From a virus: 37,719 nucleotides of DNA. The notes beneath the pieces were generated by a model. It saw only the letters and a list, made by a program, of their open reading frames with translations, was not told the origin of the DNA and made no database searches. The DNA lies in IMG/VR virus record IMGVR_UViG_3300036978_000587, positions 1-37,719 of that record. The stretch is one strand, 5' to 3'. Made by a program: the position numbers and the translations under genes. Numbering within the stretch: the first letter of the stretch is position 1; every line of letters begins with the position of its first letter. Positions 11,002 through 36,894 of this stretch are shown one piece after another.

Positions 11002-11057
11002 ATTGAAGATTGAAGATTGAAGATTGAAGATTGAAGATTGAAGATTGAAGATTGAAG
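11002..11057. repeat. Eight perfect tandem copies of ATTGAAG
   Basis: The 7-bp unit is repeated eight times without change and borders the Shine-Dalgarno of the gene at 10170..10991. On the mRNA the tract reads CTTCAAT repeated. Such a heptamer array is prone to slippage and does not alter reading frames here because it is intergenic. Confidence 0.98.
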
Positions 11058-11084
11058 ATTGGAAGAACGGAAAACAAACGCGGG

Positions 11085-12840: not shown

Positions 12841-12945
12841 GACTGACGGAAGAACGGAAAGACGGAAGAGAACTGGGGAAGATGGCCGACGGAATGGAAA
12901 ACGAAACAAAACCATTCCGCCGGCCGGGGGGGTGCGGGAGACAGA

Positions 12946-13836
12946 TCAACCAGCGGAAACGATGCCGGCGTAGATCAGGTGGGGCATGGTGGGGGCTGCG
13001 GCGGCCCGTCCGGTGGACAGGACGTCAAAGTACCCGGTGCGCTCAACTTGCTCGACGCGGGCGTCCATGAAGGGCGAGGCCTCTTCGCGGATCTGGCGGC
13101 AGATCGCCTTGATGGGCTTGGATCGGTCCACCAAGAACCAGTAGTTGGCGTAGTCTCCAGCCAACTCGCCGACCTCAACCGGGATGACCTTCTTGTAGTT
13201 GGGGTTGGCGGAGAACTGAGCGTCGGTATACTGGCTGTCGATCAGCGAGGCCACGGTGCTGCGCAGAGCCGCGCCATGTATTAGGTGCGTCCAGCGCGGG
13301 CGAATCTGCGTGCCGTCGGCGAACTTCCAGGCGCCGGTGGTCGTATAGGCCGTGTTGAACACAGCGGCCGTCAGGGCCGTGGTGACCAGATTGCCGACGG
13401 TGTTCTTGCCGTACTTGTGGTCCGTGGCGAAGATTAATTTGCCATCGAAGCACTTCGGGTTGCCCGTGAGGATTTCGATCACAAGCTGATACTTCATCTC
13501 CTGCCAGCTCAGGCCGGACATGCGCACCGTGTCGCCGAAGGCGCCGAAGGTGTCGTCCTTGATCGCATTGCGGGGCAGGCGATCTGTCTTTTCAAACGTC
13601 CTGTGGTCTACCTGGTACTTGTTGAGCAGCACGTCGTTGAAGACGCGGTCGCCGACCCACTCGCGGAATCCGGCGGCGTTCTGTGCCCAGAAGTACATAT
13701 TGGACGCGCCAGCGCCGGGGACATCCCAGAACAGGATGTCGGCCAGGTCTACAGGCGGTGTCCATTGCATGCCCTGCTTCCAGCTTGCGCTGAGGTTGCG
13801 GGCGAGTTCGGCGAGGGTGGCATTGGTGAGTTCCAT
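12946..13836 (-). CDS. T: Major capsid protein, Mu gpT family (296 aa)
   Basis: The start at MELTNATLAELARNLSASWK is chosen because a GGAG lies 7 nt upstream. The longer frame reads through a spacer of TTGGTTCT repeats. Family hallmarks are present: an N-terminal helix followed by WKQGMQW, a central DRLPRNAIKDDTFGAFGD region, DHKYGKNTVGNL, and a C-terminal strand pair ending in the VERTGYFDVLSTGRAAA motif. Mu gpT is the main head subunit. It is encoded downstream of the I/Z protease-scaffold gene, with one decoration-like gene between, as expected for capsid genes. Confidence 0.9.
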   Translation of the reverse strand: MELTNATLAELARNLSASWKQGMQWTPPVDLADILFWDVPGAGASNMYFWAQNAAGFREWVGDRVFNDVLLNKYQVDHRTFEKTDRLPRNAIKDDTFGAFGDTVRMSGLSWQEMKYQLVIEILTGNPKCFDGKLIFATDHKYGKNTVGNLVTTALTAAVFNTAYTTTGAWKFADGTQIRPRWTHLIHGAALRSTVASLIDSQYTDAQFSANPNYKKVIPVEVGELAGDYANYWFLVDRSKPIKAICRQIREEASPFMDARVEQVERTGYFDVLSTGRAAAAPTMPHLIYAGIVSAG

Positions 13837-13937
13837 GTGAGGCTCCAGGGGTGTGAGGTTTGGAAAGTTCTTGGTGCTTGGTTCTTGGTTCTTGGTTGCA
13901 AAAATGGCGCGTGGGGTTCCTACCACGCGCCTGGTGG

Positions 13938-14860: not shown

Positions 14861-15394
14861 TTACACGCCGAGCTTAGTCAGATCCTCCGGCTTGCGGCCG
14901 AACATGGCAGCGACTTTGGCAGTGATGCCCGGATCGCCGGCGGCGGCGCGGTTGTCGGCGCTGAACGCCTCGACGTTGTGCGTGCGCTGTTCGAGCGGCA
15001 CTGTGGCAGGTGTGTTCTTGGCGACTTCGCGCAGCGTGGCGAGGTCCACAGACTTGATCGCTTCGGCGCTAAACGGCAGCACCTTGCCTTCGCGAGCAGC
15101 CTGTGCGATCACGTCGGCGCGTTCCTGCGCGACGCGTTCGGCGCTGAACGTGACGATTACGCCTTCGGCCTTTTCCAGGCGCTTGGCAATCTCTTCGATG
15201 CCAGACTTGTGCGCGTCGCCCGTGGCGCTGAAGGTGACAATCTTTGACTGGAGATCTTTGATTTCCGCCGACATGGCGGAGATGCTGCCGGCGCTGGCCA
15301 GCAACGTGCCGATGTTTTTGGCCGCGCCGAGCATCTGATCATCCGAGGCGGTATCGCCCAAGCCGAGTAGCGCGAGCAGTACTTTGTGTTCCAT
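14861..15394 (-). CDS. Z: Scaffold protein from an in-frame internal start within the protease gene (177 aa)
   Basis: ATG at 15394 (codon 179 of the protease gene) has a strong AAGGA about 9 nt upstream, in frame. The product starts MEHKVLLALLGLGDTAS and is helical, Ala/Glu/Lys-rich. It corresponds to the Mu gpZ scaffold nested in I and to lambda Nu3 in C. Both products share one stop. The strong internal ribosome-binding site is seen directly; the scaffold role is known for the family. Confidence 0.8.
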   Translation of the reverse strand: MEHKVLLALLGLGDTASDDQMLGAAKNIGTLLASAGSISAMSAEIKDLQSKIVTFSATGDAHKSGIEEIAKRLEKAEGVIVTFSAERVAQERADVIAQAAREGKVLPFSAEAIKSVDLATLREVAKNTPATVPLEQRTHNVEAFSADNRAAAGDPGITAKVAAMFGRKPEDLTKLGV

Positions 15395-15928
15395 GGTGAG
15401 ACTTCCTTGGTTGGTTGTGGATTCGTCGGCCTCGTCGGCAATATCAACGCTAAACGCTCGCAGACCCGCAATGGCTCCGGCGCGACAGAGCGCCGTGCTG
15501 TGCATCCCCTGCACGGTGCGCGTGCCAGGGATGAAGCAGATCGCGGGGCTGAGGTCGCAGAAGTTCGCGACGGATTTGATTCCGCCGGGTGTCCACTCCA
15601 GGGCGTCCAGATACAGGCCTTCGCCAGGCACCAGCGTCGGGACGCCAAAGGCCGCGACTTCGCGAGGCTCCGTGGTTTCCTTGTGCGCGGGTGTGCCGGC
15701 CACGGTGTTATGCTCGTAATCCAGCGCCACGCGATCCCAACCACGCGCTTTTTGCGTGGCGGAGAAAACGCGGACGGATGAATCGTCGAGCGTAACGGGG
15801 CCGTCAATGGCCTGACTGGTGCCCCAGGGGAGCACGAGTTTGCGGACCGGAAGCGGATCGCCGCTCAGCCGCGCGGGGATCCGCACGGAGAAGCAGTGAA
15901 CGTTGATTTTGCTGGCTGGTCCTTTCAT
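14861..15928 (-). CDS. I: Head maturation protease/scaffold, Mu gpI family (355 aa)
   Basis: The N-terminal half matches the Mu I protease family: WDRVALDYEHNTV, EVAAFGVPTLVPGEGLYLDALEWTPGG and a C-terminal ALCRAGAIAGLRAFS. The protease cleaves scaffold during head assembly. Residues 179-355 form the helical scaffold part, made separately from an internal start. The C-terminus (AAMFGRKPEDLTKLGV) repeats the end of the scaffold. It lies between G and the decoration gene. Confidence 0.9.
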   Translation of the reverse strand: MKGPASKINVHCFSVRIPARLSGDPLPVRKLVLPWGTSQAIDGPVTLDDSSVRVFSATQKARGWDRVALDYEHNTVAGTPAHKETTEPREVAAFGVPTLVPGEGLYLDALEWTPGGIKSVANFCDLSPAICFIPGTRTVQGMHSTALCRAGAIAGLRAFSVDIADEADESTTNQGSLTMEHKVLLALLGLGDTASDDQMLGAAKNIGTLLASAGSISAMSAEIKDLQSKIVTFSATGDAHKSGIEEIAKRLEKAEGVIVTFSAERVAQERADVIAQAAREGKVLPFSAEAIKSVDLATLREVAKNTPATVPLEQRTHNVEAFSADNRAAAGDPGITAKVAAMFGRKPEDLTKLGV

Positions 15929-15998
15929 GACGCCCCCAGCATCTCATGTGGACGGGAGACGCAACTGGACGGAAGAAAGGTCTGAAAGGCTGGATGCG

Positions 15999-16138
15999 CG
16001 ATTGAAGATTGAAGATGGAAAATTGAAGATTGGCGGATGAGAACGGATTGAAGATTGAAAATGGAAAATTGAAGATTGGAGGATAAGAACTGAAAACTAG
16101 AAGCTGAAAATTTTCAATTTACAATCTTCAATCTTCAT
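15999..16138. repeat. GAAGATT/ATTGAAGA tract with inverted copies between I and G
   Basis: Several ATTGAAGATTG units at 16001-16078 are followed by GAAAATTTTC and then two reversed units near 16123-16138. About 14 nt at 16001-16016 pair with 16123-16138, so the spacer could fold into a long imperfect hairpin. No gene is present. The 3' copy reaches the stop codon of G. Confidence 0.85.
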
Positions 16139-16638
16139 TTCTTAATCATCGCCGCCAGCGCGGCTTCGGCTGCTTGTTGCATGCGGCGGGCCGCGGCGGG
16201 CACAAGCGTGCCGGCAGAAGTGACGGGGAAGAATGGGCGCGGGGGCAGACCAGGATGCGTGACGCTCTTGACGGGATGCTTGCCGCCGGGCCAGGCGAGG
16301 GCCTTTTTGTTTTTCGGGGTGATCTCGTATGGGCCGCGCGTGCCGAGCTGGTGAAACGCTGCGTACGCGCGATCTGTGCCGATAGTGACGCTGGTGTCCG
16401 CGAAGTTCACCACGCGGATGCTACGCCGCAAAAGCCCTTTGAGCACAAGCATGCGGTGGCCGGTCTTGGTGGCCGCCCAGGGAGAGGGGCGCAGGGAGGC
16501 GTCGTCAAAGGCGTCTTTCGTGGCCGTGGCAAAGGCTGTGCCGAGGGCGCGCATGATCTTGGCCGGGCGCGCGCATGCGTGCTGCATGCGATTTAATTCT
16601 GGTGTGACGCCGTCGCGAACTGTGAGCTGGATTTGCAT
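16135..16638 (-). CDS. G: Virion morphogenesis protein, Mu gpG family (167 aa)
   Basis: The start at 16638 overlaps the F stop as TAATG. MQIQLTVRDGVTPELNRM, then a helical part, a tail-completion core (VLKGLLRRSIRV, AAFHQLGTRG) and a proline-rich PGLPPRPFFP motif are typical of the Mu G/P2 S-type phage virion morphogenesis family. Known roles are in head-tail joining. It follows F directly, as in Mu. Confidence 0.85.
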   Translation of the reverse strand: MQIQLTVRDGVTPELNRMQHACARPAKIMRALGTAFATATKDAFDDASLRPSPWAATKTGHRMLVLKGLLRRSIRVVNFADTSVTIGTDRAYAAFHQLGTRGPYEITPKNKKALAWPGGKHPVKSVTHPGLPPRPFFPVTSAGTLVPAAARRMQQAAEAALAAMIKK

Positions 16639-17546
16639 TACGCCTCCGGATTTTCTTCCGCCGCAAGCTTGGCACCTTGCAACCACTCTTGCAAGGTCAC
16701 GTTGTTTTGCAGTTTCGTGCGACGTGCATACGCCAAGAACGCGTCGGCAATTTCCGCGTCGTAACGCGAGAGGATGCGTTCGATCGGTAGACGCAGATCG
16801 CCGGGCTTCCATGTGTAGGCGTTTTCTTTGCCCTGGTTCAGCGGTGAACGGATGTCGAGTGTGTGACCGTCTTCTTGCAGTTGGCCTTTTTCAAGCATCT
16901 TCACCACGTGGTCGTCGGCGACGCGCTGCTGGGTGACGATGGCGTTGGGATCTTCGGGGTTGATGGGGCGCTTGCCTTCGGCGGCAATCTCGCCGGCCTC
17001 GGCAGCAGTACGGGGGCGCACTTCGCAACGGCAGCCCCAGTCCCACGGCGGGAAGTGGTCGGCCCAGAAAGGCGAGTCGCAGGGGATGATCAGGCCGTTA
17101 AGTGCGGCGTGAGCGTCGCGCACGCGGTCGTCGCGCATGGAAACGTACTCCCAGTACGGAAACACGTCGCGCTGTTCGTCGAGGGCCTGGTATTCGGCGG
17201 CGGCATAGGCTTGGTAGCCGTGTGTGCGCAGCAGCAACTCGGCGCGGGCTTCGGCGGCGGCGAGTTGCTGATCCATCTCGGCAGGATCCGTGGATGTGAC
17301 CAGGCCGCCGAGATTTTCGACGATCTTATCCTTGGCTGTTTCCCAATCTCCGCCCATGGGCACTTCCGCGATCGCGTCGCGGACGCGCTGCACGGCGGCC
17401 AGATTTTCGATGCCAGTCACACAGATCGCGCGGGCTTTGAGTTCCGGCAGCAGCCTGTCGAATGTGGCGCGCAGCATAGGCTGCTTGTCGGAGACAAAGG
17501 CCGCGGCGACTTCGTTGGGGACGGGGGTGGTGAGGATGGATGGCAT
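16638..17546 (-). CDS. F: Head morphogenesis protein, Mu gpF/SPP1 gp7 family (302 aa)
   Basis: The core family motif is clear near residues 130-190: YWEYVSMRDDRVRDAHAALN, then IIPCDSPFW and PPWDWGCRCEV with conserved Trp/Cys residues. These minor head proteins act with the portal in head assembly. The N-terminal 22 residues (ILTTPVPNEVAAAFVSDKQ) are copied at the start of the upstream Lar-like gene. In Mu, F follows portal gp29 directly. Here portal is on the other arm, 18 kb away on the opposite strand. Confidence 0.9.
   Translation of the reverse strand: MPSILTTPVPNEVAAAFVSDKQPMLRATFDRLLPELKARAICVTGIENLAAVQRVRDAIAEVPMGGDWETAKDKIVENLGGLVTSTDPAEMDQQLAAAEARAELLLRTHGYQAYAAAEYQALDEQRDVFPYWEYVSMRDDRVRDAHAALNGLIIPCDSPFWADHFPPWDWGCRCEVRPRTAAEAGEIAAEGKRPINPEDPNAIVTQQRVADDHVVKMLEKGQLQEDGHTLDIRSPLNQGKENAYTWKPGDLRLPIERILSRYDAEIADAFLAYARRTKLQNNVTLQEWLQGAKLAAEENPEA
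17473..17539. repeat. 67-nt direct repeat: 5' end of F (partner 17872-17938)
   Basis: The copies match at 60 of 67 positions by direct comparison and are in the same strand and reading frame. One encodes the N-terminus of gpF, the other the N-terminus of the Lar-like protein. Substitutions are largely conservative in the protein (NEVAAAFVSDKQ versus NDVAAAFVSEKQ). Confidence 0.9.
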
Positions 17547-18746: not shown

Positions 18747-18922
18747 GGGGGCCTCCTGACGGAAAACGGAAGAACGGAATTGGGCGTTTGGGGGTGTTTG
18801 GGGGTTGGGCGGGAACGCGCAAAGGTCGCCAAGTGCCCTTCGCGGCGTTCCGCGGGGCATCTTTTGGCGTTTTTGGGTGGGGGGGGGCATAGACGGTATG
18901 GGGTAAAGACGCAAAAGGCTTT

Positions 18923-21159: not shown

Positions 21160-21591
21160 CTAACGGACGTCCTGTCGGTCGCCCTTGATTTCACTCACCA
21201 AAGAAGTTGGAGTATCAAGAAAGTCGTCGCATACAGCAAACAGCCCCTGCCGTCCGGACCACGGAATCAGCGTGCACTGGCAGGCATCATCCAAGACCCA
21301 GCCCACTGGCCCGGTGAACCATGGGCTGTGGTGCTCGCGCACGCAGTCCAGCAGCGTCACCTCGCCGACGATACCGCCACGTGGCAGATCTTCGTATGCA
21401 GGCATAGCCAGATCTTCGTGGATCGAATCCACAAAGATCCGGCAGGCCTCGTAATCCGCGCGCGTCATGGCCGCCGAAGCCGCGATCAGCAACTGACCGC
21501 GATGCTTGGTGGACCACGTCCGATTTTCGATGTTTTTCCACCCGGCCACGATCAGCCAGGCCCAGGGTTGTCTGACGGACAGGCACTTCAT
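21160..21591 (-). CDS. ASCH-domain protein (143 aa)
   Basis: MKCLSVRQPWAWLIVAGWK, then IENRTWSTKHRGQLLIAAS and GGIVGEVTLLDC form the ASCH/PUA-like fold signature (known to bind RNA or modified nucleotides). It starts inside the Gam stop as ATGA. Phages often carry such genes. A role in RNA-linked regulation or in handling modified bases is possible but unproven. Confidence 0.85.
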   Translation of the reverse strand: MKCLSVRQPWAWLIVAGWKNIENRTWSTKHRGQLLIAASAAMTRADYEACRIFVDSIHEDLAMPAYEDLPRGGIVGEVTLLDCVREHHSPWFTGPVGWVLDDACQCTLIPWSGRQGLFAVCDDFLDTPTSLVSEIKGDRQDVR

Positions 21592-26501: not shown

Positions 26502-26550
26502 GCTGTCTCCTGCTTCTTCCGTTTTTCCGTTTCTTTCCGTTTCTTCCCGT

Positions 26551-28382: not shown

Positions 28383-28446
28383 GGTCTTTTTCCAGTTGCG
28401 GCTATTTCGTGATAGGTGTAGTATTTCCGTTGTTGCGCGTGGAGCG

Positions 28447-28712: not shown

Positions 28713-29195
28713 ATGAGTAATTTATTTTCTGAACGATTAAAAGGGCTGCGCGGAGACCGCAATAAAGCTGAATTTTCAAGGGAATTAGGCATTCCTGCGC
28801 CGATGTATCATCGGTATGAAGCGGGCCAAATTCCAAAGAGTCATTACCTTGGAGTGATTGCAGACAAGTGTAAAGTAACGGTGGATTGGCTGCTGCATGG
28901 ACCTCCGGACAAGGACGTCCAGCCGCCCATCCGCACGCAATATGCGGCGCGTTCTGCACTGGCGACGTTGCCACCGCGAGAGTGGCTTAAGGAAGTGGGC
29001 GAGTTTGCGGACCGCTTTGCGGCGCGTGTGAGCGTGCCATTGACGGAAGAGCCGCTCAGGCTGTTCTTGACAAAACTGGAGATGGAAATATACGGCATTG
29101 GAATGCCCGAAGAAATCCGTGCGCTTGTGGAACGGCTATTGCAAATCGCCGCAGAGGCGCGGGCGGAGGAAAAGCGAAAGGAAAAAGAGAAATGA
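28713..29195 (+). CDS. Xre/CI-like repressor (160 aa)
   Basis: An N-terminal HTH (residues about 5-55) reads FSERLKGLRGDRNKAEFSRE, then LGIPAPMYHRYEAGQIPKS and KVTVDWLLHG. The C-terminal half is helical and charged, without a LexA-type Ser-Lys protease motif, so SOS-type self-cleavage is unlikely. It is divergent from the Ner-like gene and probably holds lysogeny. The membrane zinc-ribbon gene follows with an ATGA overlap. Confidence 0.85.
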   Translation: MSNLFSERLKGLRGDRNKAEFSRELGIPAPMYHRYEAGQIPKSHYLGVIADKCKVTVDWLLHGPPDKDVQPPIRTQYAARSALATLPPREWLKEVGEFADRFAARVSVPLTEEPLRLFLTKLEMEIYGIGMPEEIRALVERLLQIAAEARAEEKRKEKEK

Positions 29196-29536
29196 CACCG
29201 ATACTGGCGGAGATTCAGAATGTTGGTTTGGCGGCATCAGGCTTTGTGCTGGTGTTGTTCAGCATAATGATGTTTGCTTTATGCGTCTGCCTGATCATCG
29301 CGCCGCTGATGATTTGGATGCACGTCAAAGGCATGCGCGCAGAACTGCGCGACCTGGCGACGCAGATCAATTTTGCCGTCAAGCAGGTAGGCGCGGACGT
29401 GAAGCAGATCCGCGCGACGATGTCGACCCCGGCTCTGGGCGTGGACTGTCCAGGCTGCGGCAAAAAAGTGCAGCCCAACGCGAACGGCACGGGCCGGTGT
29501 GTGGCGTGCGGGCAGATGTTCCGGGTGGAGCGGTAG
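29192..29536 (+). CDS. Membrane protein with C-terminal zinc ribbon (114 aa)
   Basis: A long transmembrane segment (residues about 14-44) is followed by an amphipathic helix (MRAELRDLATQINFAVKQ) and a CPGCGKKV...CVACGQMF zinc ribbon at the C-terminus. Coupled to the repressor by ATGA, so it is probably expressed in the lysogen. Membrane position next to the repressor suggests superinfection exclusion or a host-signal sensor. That is inference. Confidence 0.75.
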   Translation: MTPILAEIQNVGLAASGFVLVLFSIMMFALCVCLIIAPLMIWMHVKGMRAELRDLATQINFAVKQVGADVKQIRATMSTPALGVDCPGCGKKVQPNANGTGRCVACGQMFRVER

Positions 29537-29626
29537 CCCTTCCGTTCTTCCGTCTTTCCGTTCTTCCGTCGTCTTTTCCACAAAAACCCCAATAAAATCA
29601 TGGTGAAATATTTCCGCAAATAGTTG

Positions 29627-29655
29627 TTGCACCCTTTTCGGAAATGTGCGATACT
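29627..29655 (+). promoter_or_regulatory. Sigma-70-like promoter upstream of an RNA unit
   Basis: TTGCAC (29627-29632) and GATACT (29650-29655) are separated by exactly 17 nt. They lie in a gene-free stretch between the repressor operon and the next genes. The start site is expected near 29662. Confidence 0.65.
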
Positions 29656-29661
29656 GATCTT

Positions 29662-29810
29662 GTTTTCAGGGCATCAGGAGGTCTGGTTCCCCGGAGACAA
29701 AAAAGAGCCTGACAATGTGTCGGGTGAGCAACGCGCGAGGCGCGCGGTAAGGAGACGGAAAGAGAAAAAGCCGAAATTGGGTTAAGTGACCTGGTTCGGC
29801 CTTTTTGTTT
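29662..29810 (+). ncRNA. Putative phage small RNA or structured leader (about 150 nt)
   Basis: Between the promoter and the terminator there is no ORF with a good start. The sequence is built of hairpins: CCTGACA-ATG-TGTCGGG at 29708-29724 (7-bp stem, 3-nt loop), GTCT...AGAC around 29681-29698, CGCGC-GAG-GCGCG near 29732-29744, then the terminator. It could be a free small RNA. Alternatively it is the leader of the operon that begins at 29840, with the terminator as an attenuator. I do not recognise a known RNA family. Confidence 0.6.
29765..29810 (+). terminator. Rho-independent terminator/attenuator before the right-arm operon
   Basis: AAAAAGCCGAA (from 29766) pairs with TTCGGC (29795-29800) and the CTTTTT that follows. 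The 19-nt loop can itself form a GGGT/ACC pair. A U-rich tract TTTTTGTTTTT follows. It ends about 25 nt before ATG 29840, so read-through would be needed for any transcript from 29662 to reach that gene. Confidence 0.75.
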
Positions 29811-29839
29811 TTCCGAATCCAGCCGCAAAGGACAAGACC

Positions 29840-30709
29840 ATGAAAATCACAGCTACTATCGAATCCAAAATCGCACTGGCCGCCGGCAAGAGCGTCGCGG
29901 GGAAACAGGAGATGGATCTGGATGTCGCGCTACTCACGGATGCAGAGCGCGCGCTGCTGGGCCAGGTGTCCGCCTCCCGGCCAGACGGCCTGGAAATCTG
30001 CCACTACCAGCATATCGCGCACGATATGCCAGCCCTCGAACTAGAGAGCCTCCGCGCATATCTCGCGCGGATCTCCGCCAAGCAGGCAGCGGAGGCGGCG
30101 CGCAAAACAGAGTGCTGCCAAGAGCTGCGCAGGCGCGTCCTGGCTGGTGATCTGCCAAATGAGCTGTCCGTGGGCTACGGCAGCGGGCACAGCACATCCT
30201 ACGATCAGTGGAAGGAGCTGATAGCGATGGAGCAGACGCAGGCACTGCTGGCCGCAGACGCCCAAGCCGCCGCCGACAGCGCCGCCGCGCGCAAAGCCGC
30301 CGCCGACAAGGACGCCGCCGACAAAGCCGCCGCTGAGGCCGCCGCCCGCGACGAGATGCTCGCCTGGATCGCCGCCCACGGCAGCCCCCGCCTACGCCGC
30401 TGCGTCGCCGAGGGCATCGAGTGCCGCGCCGCCTACCGCGACGAGCGCCTCGCCGTGGATCGCCCCGGCTGGCGCTGGTACGAGGCCGTCCGCGGCGAGT
30501 TCGACGCCCCCCGCAACCCACCCGAGGACGCCTTCGCGCAACTCGACGCCGCGCGCAAGACCTCCCCCGACGCGCAACTCGGCTGGCACACCGCCGACGA
30601 AGAGACGGACAACGAGACCGGCGACGTGACCGCCGACGCGTGGCAGGGCTACATCGCCCACGCCGAGTTCCTGGGTCGCACCATCATCCTCGGCGGCCCG
30701 CAAGAGTAA
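29840..30709 (+). CDS. Unknown Ala-rich coiled-coil protein (289 aa)
   Basis: The start at MKITATIESKIALAAGKSVA has AAAGGA 8 nt upstream; the longer frame begins inside the terminator loop and is rejected. The N-terminal domain is mixed alpha/beta. Residues about 145-175 are a pure Ala/Asp/Lys coiled coil (AARKAAADKDAADKAAAEAA). The C-terminal part is Trp/acidic (GWRWYEAVRGEFDAP, ETDNETGDVTADAW). Composition is strongly C-rich at codon third positions, as in the right-arm late genes. No family is recognised. Confidence 0.75.
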   Translation: MKITATIESKIALAAGKSVAGKQEMDLDVALLTDAERALLGQVSASRPDGLEICHYQHIAHDMPALELESLRAYLARISAKQAAEAARKTECCQELRRRVLAGDLPNELSVGYGSGHSTSYDQWKELIAMEQTQALLAADAQAAADSAAARKAAADKDAADKAAAEAAARDEMLAWIAAHGSPRLRRCVAEGIECRAAYRDERLAVDRPGWRWYEAVRGEFDAPRNPPEDAFAQLDAARKTSPDAQLGWHTADEETDNETGDVTADAWQGYIAHAEFLGRTIILGGPQE

Positions 30710-30764
30710 CCAAACCACCGCGCGCCGGACGTCCACGGCGCAAACACAAAACGAGGATACGCCC

Positions 30765-31160
30765 ATGCGAGTAACATGCACCACCTGCGGAGAGCAAGAC
30801 AGCGTACGCGATATTACGATCCCCACTCAACACGACGGACTGATTTTTTTGGCCGACGAAGCCCCATTCCAAGGCGCACGCTATGCGCGTCTCGACCTGG
30901 CCCGGCGCCGGGTAGTAAGCTGGCACGAAAGTTACCCGACTCCCGCGTACCGCGAGTGCGGATCGCACAAGACCATGCGCAAGCATTACGAGGCAAAATA
31001 CGGCGCCTTGACCGACTCCGGCCAGTTTATTTTTGTGGACGGAAAACTTTTTGACTGCGAAATACGGACGCAGAAAAAGACCTATGTGTACTCGCTCTTT
31101 GGCGGCCACACCAAGACCAATGGCGGCCGTAAATATGACGAAAAAGGGCAACTGCGATAG
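30765..31160 (+). CDS. Unknown Cys-bearing protein (131 aa)
   Basis: Begins MRVTCTTCGEQDSVRDITIP, with a CxxC and further Cys at about 65 and 97. The rest is mixed, with VSWHESYPTPAYRECG and a C-terminal YVYSLFGGHTKTNGGRKY. A metal-binding fold is possible. A strong terminator follows the stop, so this gene ends a transcription unit of two genes. No family is recognised. Confidence 0.7.
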   Translation: MRVTCTTCGEQDSVRDITIPTQHDGLIFLADEAPFQGARYARLDLARRRVVSWHESYPTPAYRECGSHKTMRKHYEAKYGALTDSGQFIFVDGKLFDCEIRTQKKTYVYSLFGGHTKTNGGRKYDEKGQLR

Positions 31161-31177: not shown

Positions 31178-31210
31178 GGCCGCCCGTCCCCCGGGCGGCC
31201 TTTTCTTTTT
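31178..31210 (+). terminator. Strong Rho-independent terminator
   Basis: GGCCGCCCG (31178-31186), a 5-nt loop and CGGGCGGCC (31192-31200) make a perfect 9-bp stem, followed by TTTTCTTTTT. It separates the 29840-31160 genes from the lysis and packaging genes, which therefore need their own promoter or antitermination. Confidence 0.92.
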
Positions 31211-31260
31211 CCGTTCTTCCGTTTTCCGTTCTTCCGTCTTTCCGTTCTTCCGTCGCGCAT
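31211..31260. repeat. TTCCGTTC/TTCCGTCT simple repeat spacer
   Basis: Imperfect repeats of CCGTTCTTCCGT fill the stretch after the terminator. The same motif, on either strand, occurs at 12842-12868, 18757-18780, 19908-19930, 26513-26548 and 29539-29572. No gene and no clear promoter were seen between 31161 and 31318. Confidence 0.85.
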
Positions 31261-31318
31261 CCTTTCACATCATTCCTTCCGCGCGCGCCCCGCGCGTCGT
31301 CTGCGGCATACTCTCCGC

Positions 31319-31609
31319 ATGACACCAACCACCCTCCTGCTTTTCGGCCTCATCATCCTCCTTTCGGCCACCGCGCTCGTGCTCTCCTCCGTCGCGCTAA
31401 TGCAAACCAAAGCCCTCTGGTCGGCCCTCAAGCGGCACGAAACCGATTGCCGTAGCACCGACGAAGAGCTTTTCCGCGAACTGCGCAAACAGTTCGATAG
31501 CCTCAATAAAGTCCAACAAGATATTCTCACTGGTATTTCCCGCCTCGAAGGCATAGACGAAGCGCAACGCCGCATCACCCAGGGAGGTTCGCGCAAGCAT
31601 GGACTCTAG
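31319..31609 (+). CDS. Small membrane protein with coiled coil, lysis-cassette position (96 aa)
   Basis: The N-terminal transmembrane helix (TLLLFGLIILLSATALVL) is followed by a polar helical tail (LWSALKRHETDCRSTDEELF, LRKQFDSLNKVQQDILTGIS). This topology fits an i-spanin or a class II/III holin. It overlaps the patatin gene by 11 nt, so co-translation is likely. Confidence 0.7.
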   Translation: MTPTTLLLFGLIILLSATALVLSSVALMQTKALWSALKRHETDCRSTDEELFRELRKQFDSLNKVQQDILTGISRLEGIDEAQRRITQGGSRKHGL

Positions 31610-32426
31610 GCGCATACTCTTCTGCAGGTCCGGCGGCGGACTCCCAGGCCTCGACATCCACATCGGGATCTGGGCGGCGCTGCATTCCTGCGGCGTGCAC
31701 GCCACGCACTGCCACGGCACCAGCGCCGGGGCGATCATCTCAGCACTCGACTCTGCCGAGTGGTCCCATAAAGCCGCCGAGGAGCTGATCCGTAGTTTTG
31801 CCAGCGATGACGTGGTAGACCACCGCACGCTCTGGCGCCTGCGCGCCGCGTTCCTCGCCAACATCTGTAGCGGCGACGCCGTACTCGATCTGCTACACAA
31901 GCACCTGCCAGTCACATGGGCGGCCTATGACAAGCCGCTCTCCTGCTGGGCCACTCAAGCCGGCACTAGCCGCCGCATCAACGCCTTCCGCCCCACCATC
32001 GCCCACGATCCTGCCGAGGCCATTGCCATGTCCAGCCGGATACCAGCGGTCTTTCCTCCTATAGAGGGTGTGGACGGACTCTACTACGTGGACGGCGGCA
32101 TGCGCCACAACCTACCGCTGCCGGCAGACTGGCAGAGTTACGACGAGGTGTGGCTCCTGATCGCCTCTGGCGCGCCTGGCGACACCCAGCCGGCCAACAC
32201 CACCATCGGCAATCTTCTACGCGTTTTTCGGCACCTGATGGCAGACCAGATACTCGACGTGCTGGAGGAAGTCCAGGACGCCAAAAACGTGCGCGTGGTA
32301 TGGCCGCGGCTGCCCACGCCGTCCATGCTGGAATTTGACCATGGCTTGATAGACAAAGCCTATACCGAGGCTTTGCGGCAGATTCAGTTTCCAGTTGCCC
32401 CCAAAAAGGAGCATGCCGATGAATAG
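31599..32426 (+). CDS. Patatin-like phospholipase in the lysis position (275 aa)
   Basis: The oxyanion-hole loop GGGLPG (residues 12-17), the nucleophile elbow GTSAG (Ser42) and the DGG motif (Asp165) are all present, the Ser-Asp dyad of patatins. These hydrolyse phospholipids or lysophospholipids. The gene is flanked by two small membrane genes and followed by gp26-, gp27- and gp28-position genes, exactly where Mu carries lys. No peptidoglycan hydrolase is recognisable anywhere in the element. It may act in lysis, though a defence or virulence role is possible. Confidence 0.88.
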   Translation: MDSRRILFCRSGGGLPGLDIHIGIWAALHSCGVHATHCHGTSAGAIISALDSAEWSHKAAEELIRSFASDDVVDHRTLWRLRAAFLANICSGDAVLDLLHKHLPVTWAAYDKPLSCWATQAGTSRRINAFRPTIAHDPAEAIAMSSRIPAVFPPIEGVDGLYYVDGGMRHNLPLPADWQSYDEVWLLIASGAPGDTQPANTTIGNLLRVFRHLMADQILDVLEEVQDAKNVRVVWPRLPTPSMLEFDHGLIDKAYTEALRQIQFPVAPKKEHADE

Positions 32427-35380: not shown

Positions 35381-36862
35381 ATGAAATTTTCCAACCTCCT
35401 AGACTTTCTTCGTCCACGCACGCGCGTGGATAACAGCCGTGAGCAGCCATCCATGGCGTCTGAAATCGATGCCAATGTGCTCTACAACGCCATCACCATG
35501 GCCGAACAACAAGGTCGCACTCGCGAACTATTCTCCCTGTACCGCGACATGCTCGTCTCCGACGGCCACGCCCAGAGCGAATTTGCCAAGCGCAAACTCG
35601 CAGTCATTAACGAACCCTTCCTTGTATTGCCCTTCGACAAAAAAAACGCGCAAGATATTCAAACTGCACAAGCCGTCGAGGCCGCCATTGCCGACGCTGA
35701 CGACCTTGTACGCTCGTGGTCGCACATGCTCGACTCTTCCCTTTACCCTATCTCTGTAGTCGAAAAAGTCTTTACTGTCGATGCCGGCGGAACCTTTCGA
35801 CTTGCCCGCTTAGTCCCGGTCCCTCACACCCTCCTGGATTTTCAATCTGGCGTGCTGAAAATTCGTGACGGACTCGACCCAGAAAACAACGAAAAAGCTG
35901 CTATTGCAGACCCAGACCACTACATCGTTCACCGCGGCAACTTGATGTCTCTTCCAGATCAATGGGGCGGCCCGATGCGTTCGGTTTTATTCTGGTGGTT
36001 ACTCTCCACATGCAACCGTGGCTGGTGGTCGCGCTTCCTGGAAAAGTACGGTGCTCCCTTCATTGTTGGGAAATACGATCCAAACGACGACGCCAGCAAA
36101 ACTATCCTTGAACGCGCCTTCCGTTCTTGTTGCCGACTCGGAGGTCTGGTAGTCACCAACGAAACGGAAATCGAACTAAAGCAAGCCGCCGCTGGAGACA
36201 CCGGTTCAGCTTTCAACGCCTTTCACGACATTTGCAACCGCGAAAAATCCAAGATCATTATCGGCCAAACCCTTTCCGCCGAAGCCAGCGCTTTAGGCCT
36301 CGGAGGTTCCGGCGCTGCCACCACGCAAGAGACTGTCCGTGCAGACATTCGCCGCTTTGACGCGCTCTCCCTGTCGGCCACCATTACCAAACACTTGTTC
36401 GTTCAAATCTGTCGCATTAATCGGCTGACTGGTCGCGTTCCCAAGGCTCAGTTCGGCACACTCCAAAATCAAACTCAAGCCGATGCTATGGCCTCCATGC
36501 TCCAGAAGCTGAAAGGTGCCGGCATCGAAATTGACGACTCTGGCTTTTCCGATCTGTCCGACCTTGCCGGCATGCCGTTACGCAGATCTGTTTCTATCGG
36601 TCCTGTTACTCCGTTTTCAGTTTCAGCCAGTCAATCGTCAAATATAGATTCAGTAGCACATAATGCTGCACCGGATCTTGCGCGCGCGTTTCGCGGGTCG
36701 CATGCGGAGATTGCGCGCATCATCCGCGAGTCATCATCAGCGACCGAGTGCCAACAACGTCTCACTGTTTTTTCTGCGTCTATGCGCCCCGGCCAAGCCG
36801 CCGAAATCCTTGAATCTGGCCTTACCGCCTACGCCGCAAACGGTCTTGTCCGACCCTTTTAG
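35381..36862 (+). CDS. gp29: Portal protein, Mu gp29/DUF935 family (493 aa)
   Basis: MKFSNLLDFLRPRTRVDNSR opens the gene; the longer frame that begins inside the terminase gene is rejected. The family core is WGGPMRSVLFWWLLSTCNRG, then RFLEKYGAPFIVGKYDPNDD and KIIIGQTLSAEASALG. The C-terminal part (residues about 430-493) is extra, ending LESGLTAYAANGLVRPF. It is the last gene of the right arm, and its final codons overlap the right terminal repeat. F, its partner in Mu, is on the other arm. Confidence 0.93.
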   Translation: MKFSNLLDFLRPRTRVDNSREQPSMASEIDANVLYNAITMAEQQGRTRELFSLYRDMLVSDGHAQSEFAKRKLAVINEPFLVLPFDKKNAQDIQTAQAVEAAIADADDLVRSWSHMLDSSLYPISVVEKVFTVDAGGTFRLARLVPVPHTLLDFQSGVLKIRDGLDPENNEKAAIADPDHYIVHRGNLMSLPDQWGGPMRSVLFWWLLSTCNRGWWSRFLEKYGAPFIVGKYDPNDDASKTILERAFRSCCRLGGLVVTNETEIELKQAAAGDTGSAFNAFHDICNREKSKIIIGQTLSAEASALGLGGSGAATTQETVRADIRRFDALSLSATITKHLFVQICRINRLTGRVPKAQFGTLQNQTQADAMASMLQKLKGAGIEIDDSGFSDLSDLAGMPLRRSVSIGPVTPFSVSASQSSNIDSVAHNAAPDLARAFRGSHAEIARIIRESSSATECQQRLTVFSASMRPGQAAEILESGLTAYAANGLVRPF

Positions 36863-36894
36863 TTTTTGTCCCACTACCCTTTCCATCTATTTTG
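36852..36894 (-). repeat. Right-end transposase-binding-like repeat (inverted partner at 92-134)
   Basis: Read on the minus strand, CAAAAT, AAAGGGT and AAAAGGGTC occur with the same spacing as in the left-end copy. The first bases lie inside the portal coding region. A further CAAAATAGAG near 36957-36966 may be an extra outer half-site, 72 bp further out. Confidence 0.7.

Follow-up and report, generated by a model that had tools for sequence, protein, structure and literature searches.

Late genes of phage Mu use activator-dependent promoters with a poor −35 element. The Mu late promoters are described as C-dependent (PMC4461284). Q-dependent late leaders require a Q protein, promoter binding repeats (QBE) and, within the first transcribed nucleotides, a −10-like pause element (PMC6606751). 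The put RNA of phage HK022 is about 70 nt long and forms two stem-loops that meet at a single junction nucleotide (PMC9378689). In prophage RNAs of the IsrK type, one promoter can give rise both to a short RNA that ends at a terminator and to an mRNA formed by read-through (PMC4825925). Furthermore, terminators are established as insulators of integrated elements, for example in Tn916 (PMC11658703).

Here, we describe an element from a 37,719-base virus record (the window, i.e., the whole stretch of DNA analyzed), which contains a Mu-like prophage. The element consists of a candidate promoter (P1), three hairpins (H1–H3) and an intrinsic terminator (T1; Table 1). It is ordinary in kind, and the reading we favor, at roughly even chances, is that of an insulating terminator preceded by a structured untranslated leader, in a style already known. 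The locus resembles lambda PR'-tR' in its succession of promoter (here a candidate), short untranslated leader (here about 150 nt), terminator, and lysis and packaging genes downstream (PMC6606751). However, it has no Q gene, Q binding repeats or well-placed pause, and a second terminator (T2) follows. As in Tn916, a strong terminator would keep transcription in the integrated state away from lytic or transfer genes (PMC11658703), but here the guard, read from sequence alone, would be against the element's own repressor operon and not against a host promoter at the end. With Gifsy-1 IsrK the locus shares a short RNA that would end at an intrinsic terminator before a phage gene reachable by read-through, whereas no sequence relation is apparent and an antiterminator neighbor is lacking. 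The likeness to HK022 put, drawn in the preliminary description, is limited to a phage leader RNA with stem-loops and was rejected beyond that: the two stem-loops of put abut, while the element has three hairpins with linkers of 6 nt, as between H1 and H2, and its own terminator.

Table 1. Features of the element, its neighborhood and the surrounding prophage.
Feature	Position	Strand	Remarks
XRE-type HTH repressor	28713-29195	+	transcription regulator families PHROG 8 (7e-9) and PHROG 4 (1e-6)
Small protein, second gene of repressor operon	29192-29536	+	no family
32-bp pyrimidine-rich repeat	29540-29571	+	identical copy 31224-31255
Inverted pair ATTTCCG-N22-CGGAAAT	29610-29645		across the −35 region; possible operator
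Candidate promoter P1	29627-29655	+	TTGCAC (29627-29632), 17-nt spacer, GATACT (29650-29655), extended −10 (TGn; TGC-GATACT); not above chance alone
Hairpin H1	29660-29700	+	loop GAGGU, internal mismatches; 9/500 shuffles
Hairpin H2	29707-29725	+	8 pairs including two G-U, loop AUG; 0/500 shuffles, for a short stretch picked afterwards
Hairpin H3	29732-29746	+	6 perfect G-C pairs; 19/500 shuffles
Long-armed intrinsic terminator T1	29751-29820	+	core stem 29770-29800, U-tract 29802-29812
Shine-Dalgarno AAAGGA of p29840	29827-29832	+	14 nt behind the T1 U-tract
p29840, orphan, 289 aa	29840-30709	+	no relatives found
p30765, orphan protein, 131 aa	30765-31160	+
Second strong intrinsic terminator T2	31178-31210	+	2nd best in window
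Patatin-like phospholipase	31599-32426		1e-17; position of a lysis cassette
Terminase small subunit		+	weak match
Terminase large subunit, Mu portal		+	profile matches
gpT-like capsid	12946-13926	−
Mu-like protease	14861-15928	−
Protein F	16638-17546	−
AAA ATPase		−	at the Mu B position
Large transposase-like protein		−	HTH domains
ParB-like protein		−
Mu Gam		−
TTCCGTTC/TTCCGTCT repeats	29540-29571, 31209-31255, 26517-26531, 18765-18779 (−), 12845-12869 (−)

Prophage context and neighboring genes

Both prophage ends carry the same imperfect inverted repeat (about 92-134 and 36852-36894). Each terminal repeat contains two AAAAGGGT/AAAGGGT copies 23 bp apart, an arrangement that none of 500 shuffles equaled, and these repeats with their paired sites are probably the prophage ends to which the transposase binds. 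Beyond the right end, a host-type gene starts with a weak match to a beta-galactosidase sugar-binding domain. Given the Mu-like genes, the matching inverted repeats at both ends and this host-type gene, the window looks like it contains a Mu-like prophage in full, terminal repeats included. The gene order is unusual for a Mu-like phage, the repressor gene and the early promoter being placed centrally. The leftward arm contains the early genes, F, G, protease, capsid and tail and the rightward arm the small and large terminase and the portal, so portal and F lie on opposite arms.

The element lies in the rightward arm, at the passage from the repressor operon to the lytic genes. The lysogenic side, to which it had been assigned, is represented by the upstream repressor operon only; the downstream genes are lytic (lysis, packaging). 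The repressor, whose Pfam HTH_3 match (0.0002) is just below the cut-off, is encoded by the first gene of an operon (28713-29536) running towards the element. The second gene product has a membrane-helix-like N-terminal stretch and a C-terminal CxxC..CxxC end resembling a zinc ribbon. Downstream, p29840 is predicted with low confidence to be mostly helical, and single-sequence AlphaFold models are poor for both p29840 (pLDDT 52) and p30765 (pLDDT 39). Three apparent relatives of p29840 in IMG/VR were dismissed as chance low-complexity matches. T2 closes the p29840-p30765 unit, and to its right follow a small membrane-type protein, the patatin-like phospholipase, terminase and portal.

DNA, exact-pattern and protein searches of IMG/VR, INPHARED and species genomes, collections that may omit records very near the window, and a search of Rfam returned no relative with the element region. 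This applies to the DNA of 29400-30100 against phages, to exact H1 DNA patterns in species genomes and IMG/VR, and to protein searches in IMG/VR with p29840, the zinc-ribbon protein, the large terminase subunit, portal and transposase. The nearest portal in an alignment shares only 32% identity (29-30% in species genomes), and none of the loci fetched via this alignment holds the element.

Terminator, hairpins and candidate promoter

T1 fits an intrinsic (Rho-independent) terminator, with a G+C-rich hairpin directly followed by the U-tract (GCCGAA..TTCGGC-C-TTTTTGTTTTT). Its core, GCCGAAATTGGGTTAAGTGACCTGGTTCGGC-C-TTTTTGTTTTT, occupies 29770-29812 and ends, as had been described, just before the next gene, whose ATG is at 29840. 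With a z of −5.64, T1 is the fifth best terminator in the window and among the few that are intergenic, and under a terminator model derived from E. coli only 9 of 1000 gap shuffles reached its score. T1 thus looks real as a sequence feature and would be expected to terminate in the host. The A-rich 5' arm pairs with the U-tract, and hence T1 may also stop leftward transcription.

Upstream of T1, H1–H3 are probably real as a sequence feature. The stretch 29655-29812 folds at −60.5 kcal/mol (z −4.25), and the three hairpins without the terminator give a z of −3.36, moderately above chance and matched by 4 of 500 shuffles. Comparable folding is uncommon but is found elsewhere: a 150-nt stretch at 29701 ranks 10th of 1504 in the window, and nine or more further stretches are folded just as strongly when compared with their shuffles. 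Of the several perfect hairpins reported earlier, three hairpins exist, but H3 alone is strictly perfect. The reported lack of a convincing open reading frame was borne out: gene finding by codon usage selected none on either strand of 29537-29839, and the small open reading frames in this gap are without a good Shine-Dalgarno sequence. One of them, a candidate leader peptide (MCRVSNARGAR, 29715-29750), was rejected, as it has hardly any Shine-Dalgarno sequence, its start codon lies in the H2 loop and it contains no codon run.

P1 is plausible as a working promoter. The hexamers, spacer and positions given in the preliminary description are exact, but the strength of the promoter is not above chance. 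P1 matches the sigma-70 consensus at 7 of 12 positions and is absent from the list of a strict consensus scan. It ranks 46th among 75,318 window positions with a simple E. coli weight matrix built on approximate frequencies of our own. A promoter as good as P1 occurred in 280 of 1000 dinucleotide-preserving shuffles of the 303-base gap (29537-29839). A promoter and a terminator in the right order and at the right distance occurred together in only 2 of 1000 gap shuffles, a rarity that is nearly all due to the terminator.

The frequency of P1-like sites in shuffles (28%) and the equally folded stretches elsewhere in the window are what would be expected if the locus did no more than terminate the repressor operon and form its 3' untranslated region, with P1 and the three hairpins lacking a role. 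We regard this as improbable, as H1–H3 jointly exceed all but the few shuffles given above and P1 combines a 17-nt spacer with an extended −10.

Across the −35 region of P1, the inverted pair listed in Table 1 might serve as an operator; 0.01 such pairs are expected in the window, but this one was first spotted by eye. A block, GGTGnAnTATTTCC..GTTGTTGC, is common to 28415-28436, close to the early region, and 29602-29630, upstream of P1, and in both copies a GAT stands 27 bases after the start of GTTGTTGC. Shuffles with the gap allowed gave such a block in 7 of 1000 cases, although it was noticed post hoc and its ungapped core is unremarkable in the window. It is a possible site of a common regulator.

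Transcription across the element

If the element is an insulating terminator, polymerase leaving the repressor operon, or possibly started at P1, would transcribe H1, H2 and H3, and most of it would stop at T1, at about position 29812. T1 would shield p29840 and the lysis and packaging genes further right from transcription in the lysogen, and T2 would guard the lysis and packaging genes a second time. Only the fraction reading through T1 would express p29840. The position of T1 suggests such an insulating role, and the gene order, with the repressor upstream and patatin, terminase and portal downstream, supports it. In this reading, P1 may be used, and read-through would be simply constitutive and low. 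On the plus strand, the best promoter-like score in 29661-29837 is 3.6, as compared to 7.5 for P1; scores do not exceed 2.6 in 31201-31318, and none is above 0 in 30710-30765. Since neither room nor promoter-like sequence is found behind T1, p29840 would be reached by read-through, unless an activator-dependent promoter was missed. Promoters of that kind with a poor −35 element escape a sigma-70 score, and p29840 or the genes from 31319 may thus own promoters. H1–H3 and P1 are superfluous to an insulator, yet the hairpins are more stable than most shuffles. If T1 insulates, it would be an ordinary but necessary part of silencing the lysis and packaging genes in the lysogen.

The arrangement, with p29840 behind T1 and without a promoter, would also suit a regulated attenuator or antitermination leader, in which T1 halts transcription from P1 in the lysogen and some signal or phage factor permits passage in lytic growth. 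Passage would then activate p29840 and p30765, and perhaps the right arm as well. We consider this possible but doubtful. The attenuator previously proposed for the genes from 29840 agrees with the locus as far as an attenuated or insulated leader is concerned, but a regulated switch is hypothetical. The record contains no match to the Q-family profiles PF06530 and PF03589, although it may encode an unrelated Q-like protein, and the spacer lacks direct repeats. A −10-like pause element (A2, T6) is absent from the first 20 transcribed nucleotides save one overlapping the start; the only candidate for a Q-type pause element, GATCTT at 29656, lies before the expected start. No competing antiterminator fold argues for a switch either. 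A candidate antiterminator pairing 29693-29709 with the U-tract was rejected as far weaker than the T1 fold: the best alternative fold reaches −33 kcal/mol vs. −71 kcal/mol for the terminator fold, and forcing the pairing costs more than 35 kcal/mol. In prefix folding, H1–H3 form and persist while T1 forms, and hence there is no built-in fold competition. Moreover, T2 separates the p29840-p30765 unit from the late genes as well.

Late control in Mu-like phages is otherwise known via activator proteins. If read-through at T1 were regulated, the locus would exemplify control by antitermination among Mu-like phages, from a lineage without a close relative in the collections searched. The far-reaching form of this idea appears quite improbable to us: in it, the 150-nt leader would act as an RNA control element, with no relatives in the libraries searched, through which a Mu-like phage from an unsampled lineage retains or releases the right arm at T1, antitermination replacing the Mor/C activators of Mu. 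A search for a Mor/C-family activator (PF08765) gave a single hit, which covers 26 residues within another gene and falls below threshold.

An independent small RNA had also been suggested. A stand-alone trans-acting RNA, roughly 150 nt long and transcribed from P1 in the lysogen, would agree with the candidate promoter, the terminator, the lack of an open reading frame and the fold of the whole stretch, and Gifsy-1 IsrK exemplifies prophage small RNAs whose terminator is partly read through (PMC4825925). We judge it less likely than a regulated attenuator, and unlikely overall, because P1 is not above chance, the element matches no Rfam family at gathering score and GGA motifs are not in excess. 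The nearest Rfam hits, among them the S15 leader (12 bits vs. 39.5), were set aside as chance, and a CsrA-type sponge was rejected with 4 GGA motifs observed against 4.4 expected.

Repeats and folds elsewhere in the window

The perfect 32-bp repeat pair brackets P1, T1, p29840, p30765 and T2, and the segment between the copies resembles an exchangeable cassette. The pyrimidine 8-mer repeats TTCCGTTC/TTCCGTCT occur in most of the larger intergenic gaps, often beside terminators. Other word-like repeats (CAATCTTCAATTTTC, AACCAAGAACCAAG) are found between or upstream of structural genes on the minus strand (15929-16134, 11009-11061 and 13870-13905). The first of these, a 206-bp repeat, sits between the G-position gene and the protease, the place where Mu has its strong gyrase site. 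When compared with shuffles, no local RNA fold in the window is stronger than that on the minus strand at 21401-21550 (z −7.8), inside a gene for an ASCH-domain protein.
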